The notes beneath the pieces were generated by a model, which saw only the letters and a list, made by a program, of their open reading frames with translations, searched no databases and was not told the DNA's origin. A DNA stretch of 25,153 bases from a virus, in IMG/VR virus record IMGVR_UViG_3300034407_000269, positions 1-25,153 of that record. The stretch is one strand, 5' to 3'. Each line of letters begins with the position of its first letter. Within the stretch, counting starts at the first letter, position 1. The position numbers and the translations under genes were made by a program. Below, in pieces: positions 19,584 through 25,074 of the stretch.

Positions 19584-19598
19584 ATGCAGTAGTGAATA
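19584..19598 (-). promoter_or_regulatory. Candidate phage RNAP promoter upstream of SSB
   Basis: Minus strand reads TATTCACTA-CT-GCAT. Aligned to T7 and T3 promoters, TCACTA occupies -8 to -3 exactly and the G of GCAT falls at +1 (19587). It lies in the 92-base gap between the SSB start and the RNAP C-part stop, facing SSB. Two further copies in the same orientation lie upstream of the RNAP genes. Confidence 0.7.
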
Positions 19599-19616: not shown

Positions 19617-21284
19617 CTATATACAGAAGAATACTGACTTCTTCACTAGGTCTAAATCTAGGTTTCCTTTAGTTGGTATCTCAGGAAATTTCTTTAGATT
19701 TTTTTCTGACAACATAGCTTTCATTTCATTAGCAAAATTTAAAAGAACATCATCTTTATAAATTTCACAGAAAGCATCTCTTATAGCATTAGCCATAATC
19801 CTATTGTCAGGTGCAGTGCAACCGAAACTGTCGTGTATCATACTAAAGTTATCAACCCCTGCTTCTTTAGCTTTCACTACAGCTAATTGTAAAACACTGG
19901 CATCTAATGAATGTATAAAATTAGGACATACACTTTGTGCAGTTTTTCTTTTATCAATCTCATTAGTTTCTGATGCAACTGATAACTTAACAATGCTATC
20001 TCCCATTTTAGTCTTAACTCTTTTACTTTCCTTTTTGTAACACATCATCTGAACTGGAAAGTTTAATGGAGTAGACCAACACACAGGTAAGTTTTCTGAT
20101 GCAACTAGTCTTGCTATAGATTTTAAGAAATCCATAATGTCTCTAGCTTTAACAACTACATCATTGATACTTTCCCATACAATAGGAGTTAGATAAGCAG
20201 TGGCTTTGAATAAATCTTCTCCAAAGTCATGTTGAGTACCTCTTTCAGTAAACTCTTTGCTTACATGGTCTTCTAAGTATTGTCTGCATGAATACCTTGT
20301 TAAAGAATAAGGTAAGCACATCACTGGTTTCTTACAGATTTTTCTATCTATTCCATAATCTAACCATTTCTTAGCCATATCATCAGTTTTGTTTTTAAGT
20401 TTTCTAGTAACTTCTATTGCTACTAAATTATAAACATCACTAGGTTTATTACTTGGTACTAGATTAGTTGCACTACCACCTACTTCATCACGCATCATTG
20501 CACTATAGTGTTGTAATCCACTGTTACTGCAGTCAGCTTGTATTGGTAATGTAGTTATAAAACTATCATCAAAATTACTATCACTGTACGCTTTCATCTC
20601 ATAACAAAACGCTAGAAAACAAAATGGTTTATCTGCGTCTGCCCACCAAGTGTATTCTAATGGAGATGTTGCACATTGAATAATTCTTTCCATGTTAGCT
20701 TTTATCCAACCAACTCTTACCTGAAGTTCTTCTTTATCTACTTCTCCAAATAACCCTGCACCTGCTACTGCAAGTATATCAAAGTTATCTCCAATTCTTT
20801 TTCCGAATTTAAAAGTTAATAAAGCTCTAGAATAATCTGCTGACTGTGGACTTAGCATTGCAGGTTTAGGATATACTCTTGACCTAAAATCTAATTGATA
20901 AGGATAAAAGAAACCACCTTTGTCTAAAAGCATTTTAGCTTCTTCCATGATTTGTCTTACCTGTATAAATTTAGAGTTTTGTTTTGCTCTACCTGAATAA
21001 ACTTTAGACGCTTCCTTTTTCCATTTAATTAAACTTTCTTTATTTGTAGAAATATCTACAGGTTTAACTGGAAGTTCTATTGTTTGTGGATTTACTGGAA
21101 GTTTACCTAATGGAAAATCATTATCCATACATTGCTTAATAACCTCATAAATAGGTTTATTAATAACCCACTCAGTATGTTGCATGATATTTACCGACTG
21201 GTAAACGACAGGCATTTCTTTAGTTAGGTTCTTTAGTTCTTCAAGGTATCTTCTGTTACTAGCTTTAACTAAATTATAGTGCAT
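19617..21284 (-). CDS. Phage RNA polymerase, C-terminal catalytic chain (split gene)
   Basis: From the ATG at 21284 it encodes 555 residues, collinear with T7 RNAP from about residue 270 to the C-terminus. Catalytic residues: Asp251 (IQADCSNSGLQHYSAM, T7 Asp537), Lys318 and Tyr326 (KKPVMCLPYS, T7 Lys631 and Tyr639), and His484-Asp485 (MIHDSFG, T7 His811-Asp812). NFIHSLDAS (455-463) matches T7 NFVHSQDGS; the specificity loop should be about 411-440. The residue after Tyr326 is Ser where T7 has Gly640. The start is set by AAGGAGAATAAATAAT before ATG and by collinearity with T7; the same frame is open to 21374, but those residues shadow the N-chain gene. It follows the N-chain stop by one base, so the chains are probably co-translated and assemble. 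Confidence 0.95.
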   Translation of the reverse strand: MHYNLVKASNRRYLEELKNLTKEMPVVYQSVNIMQHTEWVINKPIYEVIKQCMDNDFPLGKLPVNPQTIELPVKPVDISTNKESLIKWKKEASKVYSGRAKQNSKFIQVRQIMEEAKMLLDKGGFFYPYQLDFRSRVYPKPAMLSPQSADYSRALLTFKFGKRIGDNFDILAVAGAGLFGEVDKEELQVRVGWIKANMERIIQCATSPLEYTWWADADKPFCFLAFCYEMKAYSDSNFDDSFITTLPIQADCSNSGLQHYSAMMRDEVGGSATNLVPSNKPSDVYNLVAIEVTRKLKNKTDDMAKKWLDYGIDRKICKKPVMCLPYSLTRYSCRQYLEDHVSKEFTERGTQHDFGEDLFKATAYLTPIVWESINDVVVKARDIMDFLKSIARLVASENLPVCWSTPLNFPVQMMCYKKESKRVKTKMGDSIVKLSVASETNEIDKRKTAQSVCPNFIHSLDASVLQLAVVKAKEAGVDNFSMIHDSFGCTAPDNRIMANAIRDAFCEIYKDDVLLNFANEMKAMLSEKNLKKFPEIPTKGNLDLDLVKKSVFFCI

Positions 21285-21285
21285 A

Positions 21286-22299
21286 TTATTTATTCTCCTT
21301 ATTAATTGATTGACTGATTTCTTTAGCTGATTGTTGTTTGTAGTTATGCTTCTTGCCATAATATCCACCAACAAAAGGATTTTCCCATTCTCTAGGTGGC
21401 ATTAACATGGGTAAGTATTTCGGATAAAGAGCTTCATTCTTGATATTGAAGTTCTTAATTTCCTCTATAATTTTAGGCGTAGCTTCAACATAACAAATAG
21501 TTTTAATCTTATTTGATTTTCTATTTTGATGTCTTACCAAACCTAACTGTTCACAAAGCGAAACAATCTTAACCCCAAGATGTAATTGGCTTTCTTTACT
21601 CCAATCATCAAATTGTAGATTGTGCTTATTCATACAGTAAGTCCAAACCTTACGCTTGTAGAGGTATCTATTAGCGTTCTGTGGCATGTTTTTACCAGTC
21701 AGTCTTTTGGCTACTTGATTGTACTTTTCCTTTTCTTCGTCTTTGAAGATGGTTATTTTAGCTTCCAACATCAAAGCAGTACCTAGTTTTATAGCTAATT
21801 TATTAAGTGTGGTTTCTGCTGAAATACCATCAATTACATTCTTTAATGCAATCAGGCTCACAGTGTCCCAAACATTAGGATTATTAGTTATAAACTCCTC
21901 ATTAATAAAAGCTGATTTAGGTAGGCATTGGCACATCAATTTAAGTGCTGTTTGTCTGTTACCTGCAACACCAGAAGTCATACTTTCAACTTCCTTGTTA
22001 ATTAGCTTAGATAACTCAGTGATATATTTCTGTTGTAGGACTATGCCATATAAGGTCGTACTTTCTTGACTATCAACAACTGCATCTTTAATCAGCTTTT
22101 GATACCTAGTAATACCACCTCTAATCATAGCTTCTTCAAAAGCTATTTCTTCTTCTATTTTTCTTACATAGTCTTCAGTGTTTTGGTTCTTAAATTTACC
22201 ACCAACACCTACTTTGACTAGTTCTTCAAGTTGCTGTTGCAACAGGCTCTTTTCTTCAACACTGCAATCAGCGTTGGTCTTAGGCAATTCTGTACCCAT
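21286..22299 (-). CDS. Phage RNA polymerase, N-terminal promoter-binding chain (split gene)
   Basis: The ATG at 22299 is chosen because AAGGAGAACACT precedes it; a GTG at 22320 has no ribosome site. It encodes 337 residues corresponding to the N-terminal domain of T7 RNAP, which holds the AT-rich recognition loop and intercalating hairpin. Residues about 239-256 (HLGVKIVSLCEQLGLV) align with T7 HVGVRCIEMLIESTGMV, and PMLMPPREWENPFVGGYYG (297-315) aligns with T7 VVPPKPWTGITGGGYW. T7 carries straight on to RRPLALVRT; here a 22-residue polar tail (Lys, Gln, Ser, Asn) follows and the frame stops. The matching downstream sequence begins in the next ORF. No catalytic residues are expected in this part. 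Two promoter motif copies lie upstream. Confidence 0.9.
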   Translation of the reverse strand: MGTELPKTNADCSVEEKSLLQQQLEELVKVGVGGKFKNQNTEDYVRKIEEEIAFEEAMIRGGITRYQKLIKDAVVDSQESTTLYGIVLQQKYITELSKLINKEVESMTSGVAGNRQTALKLMCQCLPKSAFINEEFITNNPNVWDTVSLIALKNVIDGISAETTLNKLAIKLGTALMLEAKITIFKDEEKEKYNQVAKRLTGKNMPQNANRYLYKRKVWTYCMNKHNLQFDDWSKESQLHLGVKIVSLCEQLGLVRHQNRKSNKIKTICYVEATPKIIEEIKNFNIKNEALYPKYLPMLMPPREWENPFVGGYYGKKHNYKQQSAKEISQSINKENK

Positions 22300-22313
22300 A
22301 GTGTTCTCCTTAC

Positions 22314-22328
22314 TATTCACTACTTCAT
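22314..22328 (+). promoter_or_regulatory. Opposing copy of the candidate phage promoter motif
   Basis: Plus strand reads TATTCACTA-CT-TCAT, matching the SSB copy at all but one of 15 bases (T instead of G at the expected +1). It points toward the tRNA and integrase, against every gene in the window, and lies directly upstream of the N-chain ribosome site. Lower confidence than the other copies because +1 is T. Confidence 0.45.
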
Positions 22329-22330
22329 CA

Positions 22331-22385
22331 GTTGCACAGTTTGAAAATGTAACACCCTGCTAGTTAAGTTGCATGGTGTTGCATG
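22331..22385 (+). repeat. GTTGCA direct repeats, left group
   Basis: Three plus-strand copies: GTTGCAC at 22331-22337, GTTGCATG at 22368-22375 and GTTGCATG at 22378-22385. The last two are exactly 10 bases apart, one helical turn. With the opposed right group they resemble integrase arm-type sites. Confidence 0.55.
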
Positions 22386-22389
22386 AATG

Positions 22390-22404
22390 ATGCACTAGTG
22401 AATA
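22390..22404 (-). promoter_or_regulatory. Candidate phage RNAP promoter upstream of RNAP genes (proximal)
   Basis: Minus strand reads TATTCACTA-GT-GCAT, with expected +1 G at 22393, 94 bases before the N-chain ATG. Same core and spacing as the SSB copy. Expression from here would be autocatalytic for the polymerase. Confidence 0.68.
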
Positions 22405-22445
22405 TGATATATGTTTAAAAAAACACATTGGTATTGTTGTATTAT

Positions 22446-22460
22446 ATGCTCTAGTGAATA
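22446..22460 (-). promoter_or_regulatory. Candidate phage RNAP promoter upstream of RNAP genes (distal)
   Basis: Minus strand reads TATTCACTA-GA-GCAT, expected +1 G at 22449. It is 56 bases upstream of the proximal copy in the same orientation and abuts the large inverted repeat. Flanks are AT-rich on both sides (CCTATA before, ATAATAC after). Confidence 0.68.
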
Positions 22461-22463
22461 TAT

Positions 22464-22529
22464 AGGAAGGGGTGCAGAATTTCCTAAGACTTATGCCTTT
22501 AAGAAATCCTTTATAAACTACCCCTTCCT
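22464..22529. repeat. Large two-tier inverted repeat
   Basis: Ten-base perfect arms AGGAAGGGGT (22464-22473) and ACCCCTTCCT (22520-22529) enclose 46 bases. The interior folds again: ATTTCCTAAG pairs with CTTTAAGAAAT except for one mismatch and a wobble. The outer arms are unusually G/C-rich for this sequence. On the plus strand it is followed by TTTTC, so it could terminate a transcript from the opposing promoter; on the minus strand it sits just upstream of the distal promoter. Confidence 0.6.
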
Positions 22530-22541
22530 TTTCTATTACAT

Positions 22542-22577
22542 TGCAACTAATGCAACAAGTGCAACAATGTGTGCAAC
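22542..22577 (-). repeat. GTTGCA direct repeats, right group
   Basis: Four minus-strand copies of GTTGCA at 22572-22577, 22560-22565, 22551-22556 and 22542-22547, with periods of 12, 9 and 9 bases. They lie 55 bases from the tRNA (candidate att core) and oppose the left group. The arrangement suggests integrase or accessory-factor binding sites in the attP arm. Confidence 0.6.
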
Positions 22578-22631
22578 TTCCATTTCCATGAAGTTTGCTT
22601 AATGGACTGCATTTTTTCCAACTGCAGTTGT

Positions 22632-22715
22632 TGGTAGGCGAGAAAGGACTTGAACCTTCACCTCTTACGAGACCAGTTCCTAAGACTGGCGTGTCTGCCA
22701 TTCCACCACTCGCCC
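22632..22715 (-). tRNA. tRNA-Leu (anticodon UAG), probable attP core
   Basis: The minus strand folds into a full class II cloverleaf. Acceptor GGGCGAG pairs with CTCGCCT (first pair G-U), the D stem is GTG/CAC, and anticodon stem CCAGT/ACTGG holds loop CTTAGGA with anticodon TAG. The long variable arm is CTC-GTAA-GAG, the T stem is GAAGG/CCTTT with loop TTCAAGT, and ACCA ends the gene. It lies 33 bases beyond the integrase stop, in the same orientation. Integrating phages of this type use tRNA genes as target, so this most likely contains the attP core; because the whole tRNA is intact it could also be expressed. CTA-reading tRNA-Leu would suit AT-rich genes. Confidence 0.9.
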
Positions 22716-22748: not shown

Positions 22749-23990
22749 TTAAATCAATCCTTTACTATTATGACCAATTAAAGATTTTTCGTCTTCGTCT
22801 TCATTACCATTAAGATTTGCAATAGCATTTACCTGCATCTCATCATTTGAGTGCGTATAATACTTTTGTGCTGTCTCAATAGTTACACCTGCAAGATTAG
22901 CAATTACTGCAGGTACTTCTTTGTTCTTACCCAACTTAGTCATAAATGTATGTCTAGTTATGTAAGGTGTAAAAAGTGCAAGACCTGACAGTTCTCTAAG
23001 TTTGTCAAACATAGTTCTTAATTGACGCTTAGTGAAATGTCCAAACACTCTTTTATCTTCACGCATGTTAGCTCTATCCTTTAGATTAAGAACAATTTCT
23101 CTTGCTCTAGGTGTTAAAGGAACTTTAGTATTAACATTAGTTTTAGGTCTGTGAAAATGTACTATGTTTCTTTTAAAGTCTACATCATCAATAGTAAACT
23201 TTAAGAACTCAGTACTATGTCTCATACCTGTATCAACTAACCATATCAAAGCATTAGCAAACTCGTGATAACCATTATCTCTACATAAATCTAAAATCAT
23301 TCTTTCTTCAGATTTAGTCATAGCCATTTTGCTTTTGATGGTTTTAACTTTTAAGTTTTCCCACCCCATGTGAGATAACCTAATGTCAGGATTAAGAAGT
23401 TTACTCTGGTCTAATAAGCCATGAGCAATTCCATATCTAAATATGTCTCTTAATAATCCAAGCCTTTTGTTGATAGTACGATTTGATACATGACCCATGT
23501 GGTTAGCGTCTCGTTCAACAATACGCTTTCTCATGTGTGCAACAAACCCATTATAATATTCATGCGTTTGCATATCATCTAATCGTATGTCTGATGGAAA
23601 ATAACTAAACACATCATTAGCAAAAATATCTATATTTCTGTTATGACCTGTTTCGCTGTGCTTCCATCTTTCTTCATACAAAGTGTCGTAAGTAGTTTTA
23701 AGTGTACCAACAGCTCTAATAACTTTTAAGTTCTGTTTAGTAACTGTACCATTTGACAACATTGCGATAGCTAAAAGTTTTTCTTTTTTAGCTTCTTCCA
23801 ACGCTTCATTAAAAGTTTTTAACCTTTGTTCAGGCGAAGCATTTGGTGGGTAATGTATTTTAACAGTACGAAAGTCTTTCAACTTATCTTTCTTACCATT
23901 AACCATTACATTTTTTCTTGTCTGTATTCTAAAGGAAGTCTTAGTCTTGTTCATTGTAATCCCTTTAGGTAACAACATTTGAGTGTCCAT
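22749..23990 (-). CDS. int: Tyrosine recombinase integrase
   Basis: This 413-residue protein has an N-terminal arm-binding region (about 15-80), a SAM-like core-binding domain (about 95-200, with NRTINKRLGLLRDIFRYG) and a catalytic domain from about 222. Arg257 (DTGMRHSTEFL), Lys284 region (HRPKTNVNTKVPL), Arg346-His347 (YITRHTFMT) and Tyr378 (ETAQKYYTHS) are the expected catalytic elements. The first His of the usual HxxR is Tyr343, and the usual LGH position reads LAG, so two canonical His positions differ. It should recombine attP with a host tRNA gene; the adjacent tRNA-Leu supports this. AAAGGAGATAAATCT precedes the ATG at 23990. The upstream regulator ends 4 bases away, so they are probably one operon. 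Confidence 0.94.
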   Translation of the reverse strand: MDTQMLLPKGITMNKTKTSFRIQTRKNVMVNGKKDKLKDFRTVKIHYPPNASPEQRLKTFNEALEEAKKEKLLAIAMLSNGTVTKQNLKVIRAVGTLKTTYDTLYEERWKHSETGHNRNIDIFANDVFSYFPSDIRLDDMQTHEYYNGFVAHMRKRIVERDANHMGHVSNRTINKRLGLLRDIFRYGIAHGLLDQSKLLNPDIRLSHMGWENLKVKTIKSKMAMTKSEERMILDLCRDNGYHEFANALIWLVDTGMRHSTEFLKFTIDDVDFKRNIVHFHRPKTNVNTKVPLTPRAREIVLNLKDRANMREDKRVFGHFTKRQLRTMFDKLRELSGLALFTPYITRHTFMTKLGKNKEVPAVIANLAGVTIETAQKYYTHSNDEMQVNAIANLNGNEDEDEKSLIGHNSKGLI

Positions 23991-23994
23991 AGAT

Positions 23995-24453
23995 TTATCT
24001 CCTTTCGTTAGACATTCTTATAGGCATATTAATTACAACGCTTCTTAGCTTCCCATCTTTATCAACATCTTTTGCAACTGATGTAGAACCTACTAAGTGC
24101 TGTTGGAACTTTTTACCTAATGGTGTTAGTTCAACTTCTTTTTTTCTAGCATCTAATCTGTCGCTAATAACTTTAACGAGACCCAGTTTATTTGCTAAGT
24201 AGTCTAGCGTTCTACTCAAAGAAGGTTGGGTAATATGTCTCCCAAATACTTCATGGTAGTAGAAGCTAATCTTATGTTGATTGCTGTTATGCTTTGGTAG
24301 CACAAGCAACAATTTGAAAACAGAAACATAATGAAATGGAACTCCATTACCATGTAACTGTTCTTTGTTTTGGCGTTCAACAACTTCTATTCTGTCTAAG
24401 AATAGTCTGTCAAAATGTAAGTTATGAATTACTTTTTCTATACTTAGTGCCAT
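23995..24453 (-). CDS. Winged-helix transcriptional regulator, MarR-like
   Basis: The product has 152 residues. The region from about 40 to 125 looks like a winged helix: helices VSVFKLLLVLPKH and ITQPSLSRTLDYLANKLGLV (recognition helix near TQPSLSRTLDYL), then a beta wing VISDRLDARKKEVELTPLGK. This last stretch (SDRLDARKKEVELTPLG) is close to the MarR family D.RD.R...L.LT..G wing. GAAAGGAGCAAG precedes the ATG. Next to the integrase and upstream of it in one operon, it is the best candidate in the window for a lysogeny or integrase regulator. No CI- or Cro-like gene is seen. Confidence 0.75.
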   Translation of the reverse strand: MALSIEKVIHNLHFDRLFLDRIEVVERQNKEQLHGNGVPFHYVSVFKLLLVLPKHNSNQHKISFYYHEVFGRHITQPSLSRTLDYLANKLGLVKVISDRLDARKKEVELTPLGKKFQQHLVGSTSVAKDVDKDGKLRSVVINMPIRMSNERR

Positions 24454-24874
24454 CTTGCTCCTTTCTATGTTTAGCTAAAGTAAACACAGAAGCGTTGTGA
24501 TGGTCTTTCTTTGTCATGTGAATTAATGATTTAATTATTTCACTTTCAGGTTTGTATTCAAATAAAGGTATTAAGTTTGTTTCTTTTTGAGCTTTACTAA
24601 AAGCATACTCAATAACAACATTACCTAACCTTAATGATACCGACCTTTCAAAGTCATCTTCATATACAACTTTCTCAACAAAAGATGTTTTCAAGTCTTT
24701 TGTATCAATAGGATAATGAGCATCTAACTTCTTAATAAAATAATCAAAATTATTTTTACTGCTGAAGCTACGCACCCAACTCCACACCTTACATACTGCG
24801 TGTGATGTATACCAAGTCATCTGTGTAGTTATTTTAGCCATATTTTTATACTTGTTATTCAACATTATTAACAT
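24422..24874 (-). CDS. Hypothetical protein, 150 residues
   Basis: The frame opens with ATG at 24874, two bases after an AAAGGAG; an ATG three codons on (24865) is 11 bases from it, and either may be used. The interior MAKITTQMTWYTSHAVCKVW could also be the start of the conserved protein. Mixed alpha/beta composition, with VSLRLGNVVIEYAFSKAQKE as a probable strand-helix pair. No motif is recognised. It overlaps the regulator start by 32 bases and is probably in one operon with regulator and integrase. Confidence 0.6.
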   Translation of the reverse strand: MLIMLNNKYKNMAKITTQMTWYTSHAVCKVWSWVRSFSSKNNFDYFIKKLDAHYPIDTKDLKTSFVEKVVYEDDFERSVSLRLGNVVIEYAFSKAQKETNLIPLFEYKPESEIIKSLIHMTKKDHHNASVFTLAKHRKEQDGTKYRKSNS

Positions 24875-25074
24875 TTCTCCTTTCTATGCACAAGTGTATT
24901 TATTACTGCATTTATTGCTGTATTTAGTTTATCTGCGAAAAAATAGATAAAGTGCATATTATTGCTTATGCAGATATTCCATAATTTACCAATAGAACAT
25001 TTGATGTGTGTATAAAAATGTATAACCATCTGCGTCTTGCTACTGTTTAGTAAAACTCTAAAAAGAATTGTCAT
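24868..25074 (-). CDS. Doubtful ORF, 68 residues
   Basis: The frame runs from ATG at 25074 to TAA overlapping the next start, and has no ribosome site. The product (MTILFRVLLNSSKTQMVIHF...) is rich in Phe, Tyr, Ile and Asn, and its end is formed partly by a 12-base tandem repeat. It could be a small early protein, or the stretch may be a leader/operator region. I favour neither strongly. Confidence 0.3.
   Translation of the reverse strand: MTILFRVLLNSSKTQMVIHFYTHIKCSIGKLWNICISNNMHFIYFFADKLNTAINAVINTLVHRKEKC
24898..24927. repeat. Tandem 12-base repeat, about 2.5 copies
   Basis: ATTTATTACTGC, ATTTATTGCTGT, then ATTTAG on the plus strand. It lies just upstream of the 150-residue early gene and close to a second symmetric element at 24953-24972. 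Confidence 0.45.
24953..24972. repeat. Inverted repeat, operator-like
   Basis: TGCATA (24953-24958) and TATGCA (24967-24972) separated by 8 bases; the centres are 14 bases apart. It lies upstream of the early operon that contains the winged-helix gene and could be a binding site of a dimeric regulator. Weak on its own in AT-rich DNA. Confidence 0.35.

Follow-up and report, generated by a model that had tools for sequence, protein, structure and literature searches.

A probable phage attachment site and lysogeny-control region in a T7-like pelagiphage that carries its own tRNA-Leu

The window analyzed here is a 25,153-nucleotide stretch of viral DNA (positions 1 to 25,153 of IMG/VR record IMGVR_UViG_3300034407_000269) in which a tyrosine integrase gene and a split T7-like RNA polymerase (RNAP) gene are separated by a complete tRNA-Leu and a repeat-rich intergenic region. 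Positions 22316–22715 very probably serve a temperate T7-like pelagiphage as its phage attachment site (attP) and for the control of lysogeny; a short core would recombine there with the anticodon loop of the host tRNA-Leu(UAG) gene, and the phage tRNA would replace the gene that is split. The position of the crossover, the loss of the host tRNA gene and the presence of an intact phage tRNA are all seen in prophages of related phages, and the window itself has the same architecture and matches the SAR11 target over 10 bp. SAR11 bacteria are among the most abundant in the ocean, and their lysogeny by phages is, to our knowledge, poorly known.

The probable attP core and its flanking repeats

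The key to the site, overlooked in the initial annotation, is an 11-nt direct repeat, TTCCTAAGACT, present at 22481–22491 and 22677–22687, the second copy being the anticodon region of the phage tRNA-Leu. The first copy includes the core, a 10-bp stretch in common with SAR11 tRNA-Leu(UAG) (host context ...GGTCTTAGGAAC...), whose central 7 bp, CTTAGGA (22482–22488), are those of the anticodon loop of the host tRNA and form a putative 7-bp overlap. The core lies within an inverted repeat, midway between two opposed sets of GTTGCA elements; the same core position is the crossover point in relatives, and the same plan is seen in phages HTVC011P, HTVC041P, HTVC025P, and the uncultured phage S30-C28. 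The features are as follows, with offsets measured from the core along the tRNA strand.

22331..22336, plus strand: putative integrase arm-type site, offset +152
22368..22373, plus strand: putative integrase arm-type site, offset +115
22378..22383, plus strand: putative integrase arm-type site, offset +105
22481..22490, minus strand: attP core, 10 bp, GTCTTAGGAA on that strand (TTCCTAAGAC as written for the window); part of the 11-nt repeat with the phage tRNA, and matching SAR11 tRNA-Leu(UAG)
22542..22547, minus strand: putative integrase arm-type site, offset -59
22551..22556, minus strand: arm-like GTTGCA, an additional copy in the window's subgroup, offset -68
22560..22565, minus strand: putative integrase arm-type site, offset -77
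22572..22577, minus strand: putative integrase arm-type site, offset -89
22632..22715, minus strand: phage tRNA-Leu(UAG), complete with encoded CCA (Rfam tRNA, 54.6 bits); candidate rescue tRNA, of the isoacceptor targeted in lysogens
22749..23990, minus strand: tyrosine integrase gene, 413 amino acids (PF00589, E 6.9e-16; phrog_1, E 1.7e-29)

The initial annotation had listed seven GTTGCA elements within 250 bp, and exact matching bears out both their positions and their spacings: three are on the plus strand (22331, 22368 and 22378, the latter two 10 apart) and four on the minus strand (22542, 22551, 22560 and 22572, at spacings of 9, 9 and 12). This density of seven per 250 bp is far above chance: it compares with none of 300 dinucleotide-preserving shuffles of the window exceeding four, and when the 300-bp region alone was shuffled 1000 times, 4 of the shuffles reached seven copies of any 6-mer. 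Among the loci compared, which are related IMG/VR contigs and HTVC phages carrying the full stretch, the arms lie in almost all cases near -89, -77 and -58 on one side and +106, +116 and about +128 to +130 on the other, and these positions are kept across three motifs (GTTGC, GATAC and TCTAC) that change with the integrase lineage. Constant positions with a motif that follows the integrase lineage are the pattern expected of integrase arm sites, and the window has repeated arm sites on both sides of its core, as in a lambda-type attP. Judged from sequence, the seven elements are very probably integrase arm sites, and the region hence an attP. The earlier proposal of an attP with arm-type repeats adjoining the integrase gene and targeting a host tRNA-Leu is supported in those respects, but its choice of the tRNA-Leu cloverleaf (22632–22715) as core, with opposed arms beside it, is not: the arm sets flank 22481–22490 on both sides, and relatives cross over at the short anticodon-loop copy, leaving the phage tRNA intact inside the prophage.

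Prophages at the host tRNA-Leu gene and the joint change of core and tRNA

SAR11 genomes were gathered through a 16S pattern, and the lysogen genomes are single cells or assemblies, some of them incomplete. In 198 Pelagibacterales genomes searched by pattern, the target GGAATTGGTAGACGCGTTGGTCTTAGGAAC is present intact, in most cases as a single copy, and in two genomes it breaks off past CTTAGGA; a scan of genome contigs with two peptide patterns only returned no integrase relative. A survey with an integrase profile was positive in 5 of 397 Pelagibacterales genomes, and all five hits are at the tRNA-Leu(UAG) gene beside tig. Both junctions are present in three of these prophages (G158, G153 and G082), and G250 and G320 have attR only, in the same arrangement, so that the attL and attR junctions sought in the initial annotation exist in related prophages, with none found from the window's own close relatives. 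In G158 and G153 (prophages of 36,874 and 36,653 bp), attL joins the 5' half of the host tRNA, up to its anticodon loop, to phage DNA that leads on to the split RNA polymerase gene, and attR passes from phage DNA into the 3' half of the host tRNA, followed by tig-clpP-clpX-lon; G082 has the same attL and attR make-up and is a third complete case. ARAGORN detects no tRNA on either side at the junctions of G158 or G153, and recovers tRNA-Leu(UAG) when their host flanks are rejoined; the joined prophage ends equal the attP of phage contig L207, with a shared core of 9 bp (GTCTTAGGA). An intact phage tRNA-Leu(UAG) sits just inside attR in both, and the phage's tRNA-Leu(UAG) is present in all five lysogens. 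In G082, G153 and G158 the only tRNA-Leu(UAG)-like places that the pattern search finds are the broken host half and the phage tRNA, a statement limited to the available sequence because some lysogen genomes are incomplete. The site in the window probably cuts in half a leucine tRNA gene of which the host has a single copy. We note that in G082 (contig G082:C1, attL 287,289 and phage tRNA 250,384) and G320 (contig G320:C13) the host tRNA-Leu(UAG) loop is CTTAGAA and that of the phage tRNA CTTAGGA; in G082 the host loop CTTAGAA is seen at both junctions.

From these data we propose that the integrase of the window would bind the GTTGCA arms, four left and three right, as well as the core at 22481–22490, and would catalyse recombination between that core and the anticodon loop in the host's tRNA-Leu(UAG) gene. 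Because attP and the host site attB are identical over only about 10 bp, the host gene would be split and rebuilt at neither junction, and the phage tRNA-Leu(UAG) would substitute for it, keeping the infected cell alive and presumably being essential in the lysogen.

The phage tRNA and the core change together. In 42 of 42 loci, and in all eight examined later, the phage tRNA-Leu has one further exact copy of its 7-nt anticodon loop, 88–167 nt downstream; the tRNA is retained in every locus holding the stretch, and its stems can be wholly different (HTVC025P, L008). In most loci the core is CTTAGGA (UAG), a prevalence that common descent alone could explain, so that the switched loci are the informative ones. 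These have CTTAGAA (UAG with A37; L013, L023 and L024), TTGAGGG with a tRNA-Leu(GAG) (L011, one contig), and CTTAAAA with a tRNA-Leu(UAA) (L038, one contig). Two additional scans for further GAG or UAA phages returned just L011 and L038 again, and a SAR11 tRNA-Leu with the loop TTGAGGG is matched in 46 of 58 genomes. The apparent rescue-tRNA strategy is widespread among the relatives, and seems to be directed at more than one leucine tRNA. A separate observation concerns L023, L024 and L031, where attP has two core copies, CTTAGGA and CTTAGAA, about 22 bp apart; the left arms hold their distance to the first and the right arms to the second, as if the core had been duplicated or re-targeted.

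In a classical tRNA attP the core would lie within the phage tRNA-Leu at 22632–22715, and the host tRNA would be rebuilt at one junction. The tRNA-Leu does stand next to int, and attP sites of the cyanophages P-SSP7 and S-TIP37 match host tRNA-Leu (PMC8776855). Such a site should resemble the host tRNA extensively in its 3' portion and hold the crossover there, but the window offers 10 bp and has no tRNA 3' half after its core; the SAR11 match to 22632–22715 that the initial annotation had suggested seeking amounts to only 77–79% identity with the host tRNA-Leu(UAG), and it is at 22481–22490 that the 10-bp match is found. The arms, moreover, surround the hairpin core and not the tRNA, and in the related prophages, of which three have both junctions and two have attR, the junction lies at the hairpin copy and an undamaged phage tRNA remains inside. 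The classical reading is refuted for the relatives, and for the window we regard it as extremely improbable. It is very improbable, too, that imprecise excision left the tRNA behind as a relic, as proposed for T7-like phages with a tRNA-Leu beside int (PMC10134795), or that it is a gene for translation or anti-defence rather than for rescue of the lysogen: it is present in every locus with the stretch, it switches anticodon when the core switches, it has diverged from the host tRNA yet is a full tRNA with CCA, and the sole intact tRNA-Leu(UAG) found in lysogens is that of the phage.

The GTTGCA elements could also be sites for another protein, such as a repressor or excisionase, since they are interleaved with palindromes that are likely to be operators (see below) and their own role is read from sequence. 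This we consider quite improbable, as they stay at constant distances from the core even where their motif changes with the integrase lineage, and the palindromes keep their motif over the same lineages. Some observations nonetheless weigh against an integrase-bound attP aimed at tRNA-Leu(UAG) in the window: its third right arm is at +152 and not +130, a Pfam scan of the integrase gave no arm-binding domain by name, the arm motif tracks the whole integrase lineage and is not separable to the N-terminal domain alone, and no prophage was found of the window's close relatives (integrases 84–94% identical), so that its host site is deduced from the 10-bp core and kinship.

The inverted repeat, operator-like palindromes and possible polymerase control

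The DNA between the core and the RNA polymerase gene, together with the gene upstream of int, suggests a control region overlapping attP. The relevant features are these.

22464..22473: inverted repeat, one arm, AGGAAGGGGT
22520..22529: inverted repeat, other arm, ACCCCTTCCT
22447..22458: operator-like palindrome 1, TTCACTAGAGCA on the minus strand, offset +30
22391..22402: operator-like palindrome 2, TTCACTAGTGCA on the minus strand, offset +86
22316..22327: palindrome 3, operator-like but weak, at the RNAP gene start
21286..22320, minus strand: split T7-like RNA polymerase, N-terminal part (phrog_414, E 5.6e-39; PF14700), the first gene past attP
19617..21374, minus strand: split RNA polymerase, C-terminal part (phrog_414, E 2e-186; PF00940)
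23995..24453, minus strand: MarR-like winged-helix regulator, candidate lysogeny repressor, from profile and fold matches

The inverted repeat forms a strong hairpin on the minus strand (z -5.5 and -5.9). Most relatives have a stem at the same place with a different sequence, and the pairing therefore seems to be selected; the hairpin is asymmetric about the core, and therefore something other than a mere pair of core-type sites. Its arms would be parted by integration. A scan of the region gave no intrinsic terminator above chance, and since the relatives' hairpins are also without regular T runs, we do not call it a terminator. Our best guess, held with low confidence, is that in the phage genome, as long as it is free, the hairpin acts as an insulator between the int–tRNA transcript and the polymerase gene. 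More broadly, and only tentatively, core and rescue tRNA may be a single exchangeable aim-and-antidote cassette, its target switched among UAG, GAG and UAA by joint replacement within a fixed arm geometry, with the core hairpin, formed in the free phage genome only, as an integration-sensitive element between the int–tRNA unit and the RNA polymerase gene.

The intergenic region also has a 16-nt repeat (22390–22405 and 22446–22461, 56 bp apart). In relatives, TGCACNNGTGCA-like palindromes lie between the core and the RNA polymerase gene at +28 to +30, at +84 to +86 and, less regularly, at about +135; 50 were observed over the loci against 0.67 expected from mononucleotide shuffling, a comparison that overstates independence because the loci are related. 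They retain their motif across lineages whose arms change motif. Over the whole window the motif is not in excess (7 matches against 7.0 expected, allowing two mismatches), and the case for the palindromes thus rests on position and conservation. Similar palindromes are found upstream of ssb (19585–19596) and of the open reading frame (ORF) at 24422–24874 (24887–24898). That ORF, located upstream of the MarR-like gene, is itself conserved, with homologues in the same place in relatives.

The MarR-like gene is directly upstream of int and is conserved in relatives. A profile of 18 orthologues matches TcaR (E 1.9e-4) and SlyA (E 4.6e-4), and Foldseek matches its model (predicted local distance difference test score 74.6) to MepR (E 2.4e-4, probability 1.00). 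We suggest that this protein would repress the RNAP gene at the palindromes; such T7-like phages have been proposed to use a MarR-type repressor that acts on the polymerase promoter (PMC10134795). The arms had been described as interleaved with RNAP promoters, but a scan of the intergenic region gave no sigma-70-like promoter above chance, and the interleaved elements that find support are the palindromes. That this DNA serves both att function and expression of the polymerase is a reasonable idea, and integrase binding may compete with that expression; the partner in shared control is more likely the MarR-like regulator than promoters.

Relation to known phages and to tRNA-dependent lysogeny

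The window has the gene set of a T7-like pelagiphage, including a T7-type single-stranded DNA-binding protein, a primase-helicase, a DNA polymerase, and the split RNA polymerase, encoded by two overlapping ORFs (19617–21374 and 21286–22320). The closest annotated records are Pelagibacter phages HTVC011P, HTVC041P and HTVC025P, whose integrases are about 37–40% identical to that of the window. Members of HTVC019Pvirus group III have tig beside the prophage and, except for HTVC011P, a split RNA polymerase (PMC6811365); the window shares the split polymerase and has int and tRNA-Leu ahead of it, and the related lysogens have the group's integration site, tRNA-Leu(UAG) beside tig. The sequences of HTVC011P, HTVC025P and HTVC041P have the same plan of core, arms and tRNA, but the window differs in its four left arms, its third right arm at +152 and its larger hairpin. 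According to Chen et al. 2019 (PMC6811365), phages HTVC011P and HTVC025P and the Fonsibacter prophage uv-Fonsiphage-EPL use tRNA-Leu(TAG) as their integration site through a core of 11 bp, and the phage tRNA-Leu takes the place of the host tRNA that is lost. tRNA-dependent lysogeny is already reported for these three, and the window adds to that kind. The sites of HTVC011P and HTVC025P were reportedly mapped by Zhao et al. in 2019.

The phenomenon was named and proved in mycobacteriophages (Guerrero-Bustamante and Hatfull 2024, PMC10865867), where the requirement for the tRNA was established with mutants; for the window we infer it. As in the actinobacteriophages Fionnbharth, LeBron and Gaia of that study, the window has a tyrosine-family integrase, arms on both sides of the core, a phage tRNA of the same isotype and indeed the same isoacceptor, and a core matching a host tRNA gene (8–17 bp in theirs), with the tRNA predicted not to be rebuilt. 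An attB in a host tRNA is seen in 5 of 5 integrase-bearing SAR11 genomes and is suggested for the window by its 10-bp match, and the host tRNA is rebuilt at neither attL nor attR in G158 and G153. Unlike the actinobacteriophages, the window is from a T7-like podovirus of SAR11, and has a tRNA-Leu and a hairpin around the core.

Further parallels are more partial. Roseophage CRP-810 has a 13-bp core in the middle of a host tRNA-Thr, with a phage tRNA-Thr next to attP and junctions confirmed by polymerase chain reaction, but it belongs to an unrelated family, uses tRNA-Thr, and its authors discuss no rescue in the available sections of their report (PMC11288001). P-SSP7 and S-TIP37 are likewise T7-like, with int followed by attP and host tRNA-Leu as the match, whereas the sections available to us mention no rescue tRNA and state that no stable lysogens were obtained (PMC8776855). 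LUZ100 and related T7-like temperate phages share a MarR-like gene ahead of int, a tRNA-Leu beside int, and proposed MarR sites at the RNAP promoter, but LUZ100 infects Pseudomonas, lysogeny was not obtained, and the tRNA was taken as an excision relic (PMC10134795).

In the literature searched, with subscription papers outside its scope, there is no prior report of isoacceptor switching in this group, of a fixed arm geometry across motifs, or of the palindromes; what appears to be new is thus the switching, the arm geometry constant across three motifs, and the fixed-offset palindromes ahead of the RNA polymerase gene. Our results indicate that phages of this T7-like group as a rule lysogenise by breaking a tRNA gene that exists in one copy and bringing a tRNA of their own, and lysogeny is thereby tied to one phage gene. 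The prevalence of tRNA-dependent lysogeny outside the actinobacteriophages was stated to be open (PMC10865867), and it is here extended to a large marine group, in which the target tRNA of a phage contig can be read from 7 bp.

The window's integrase has about 95 residues ahead of its SAM-like domain. The arm motif could not be assigned to the integrase N-terminal domain alone, as same-motif pairs are more alike throughout the protein (N-terminal domain 32.6% versus 26.7% identity for other pairs; remainder 44.8% versus 34.9%). The integrases of L008 and L009 are 59% identical in the N-terminal domain and 100% elsewhere, with nearly identical attP sites, reflecting either a domain swap or an assembly chimera.
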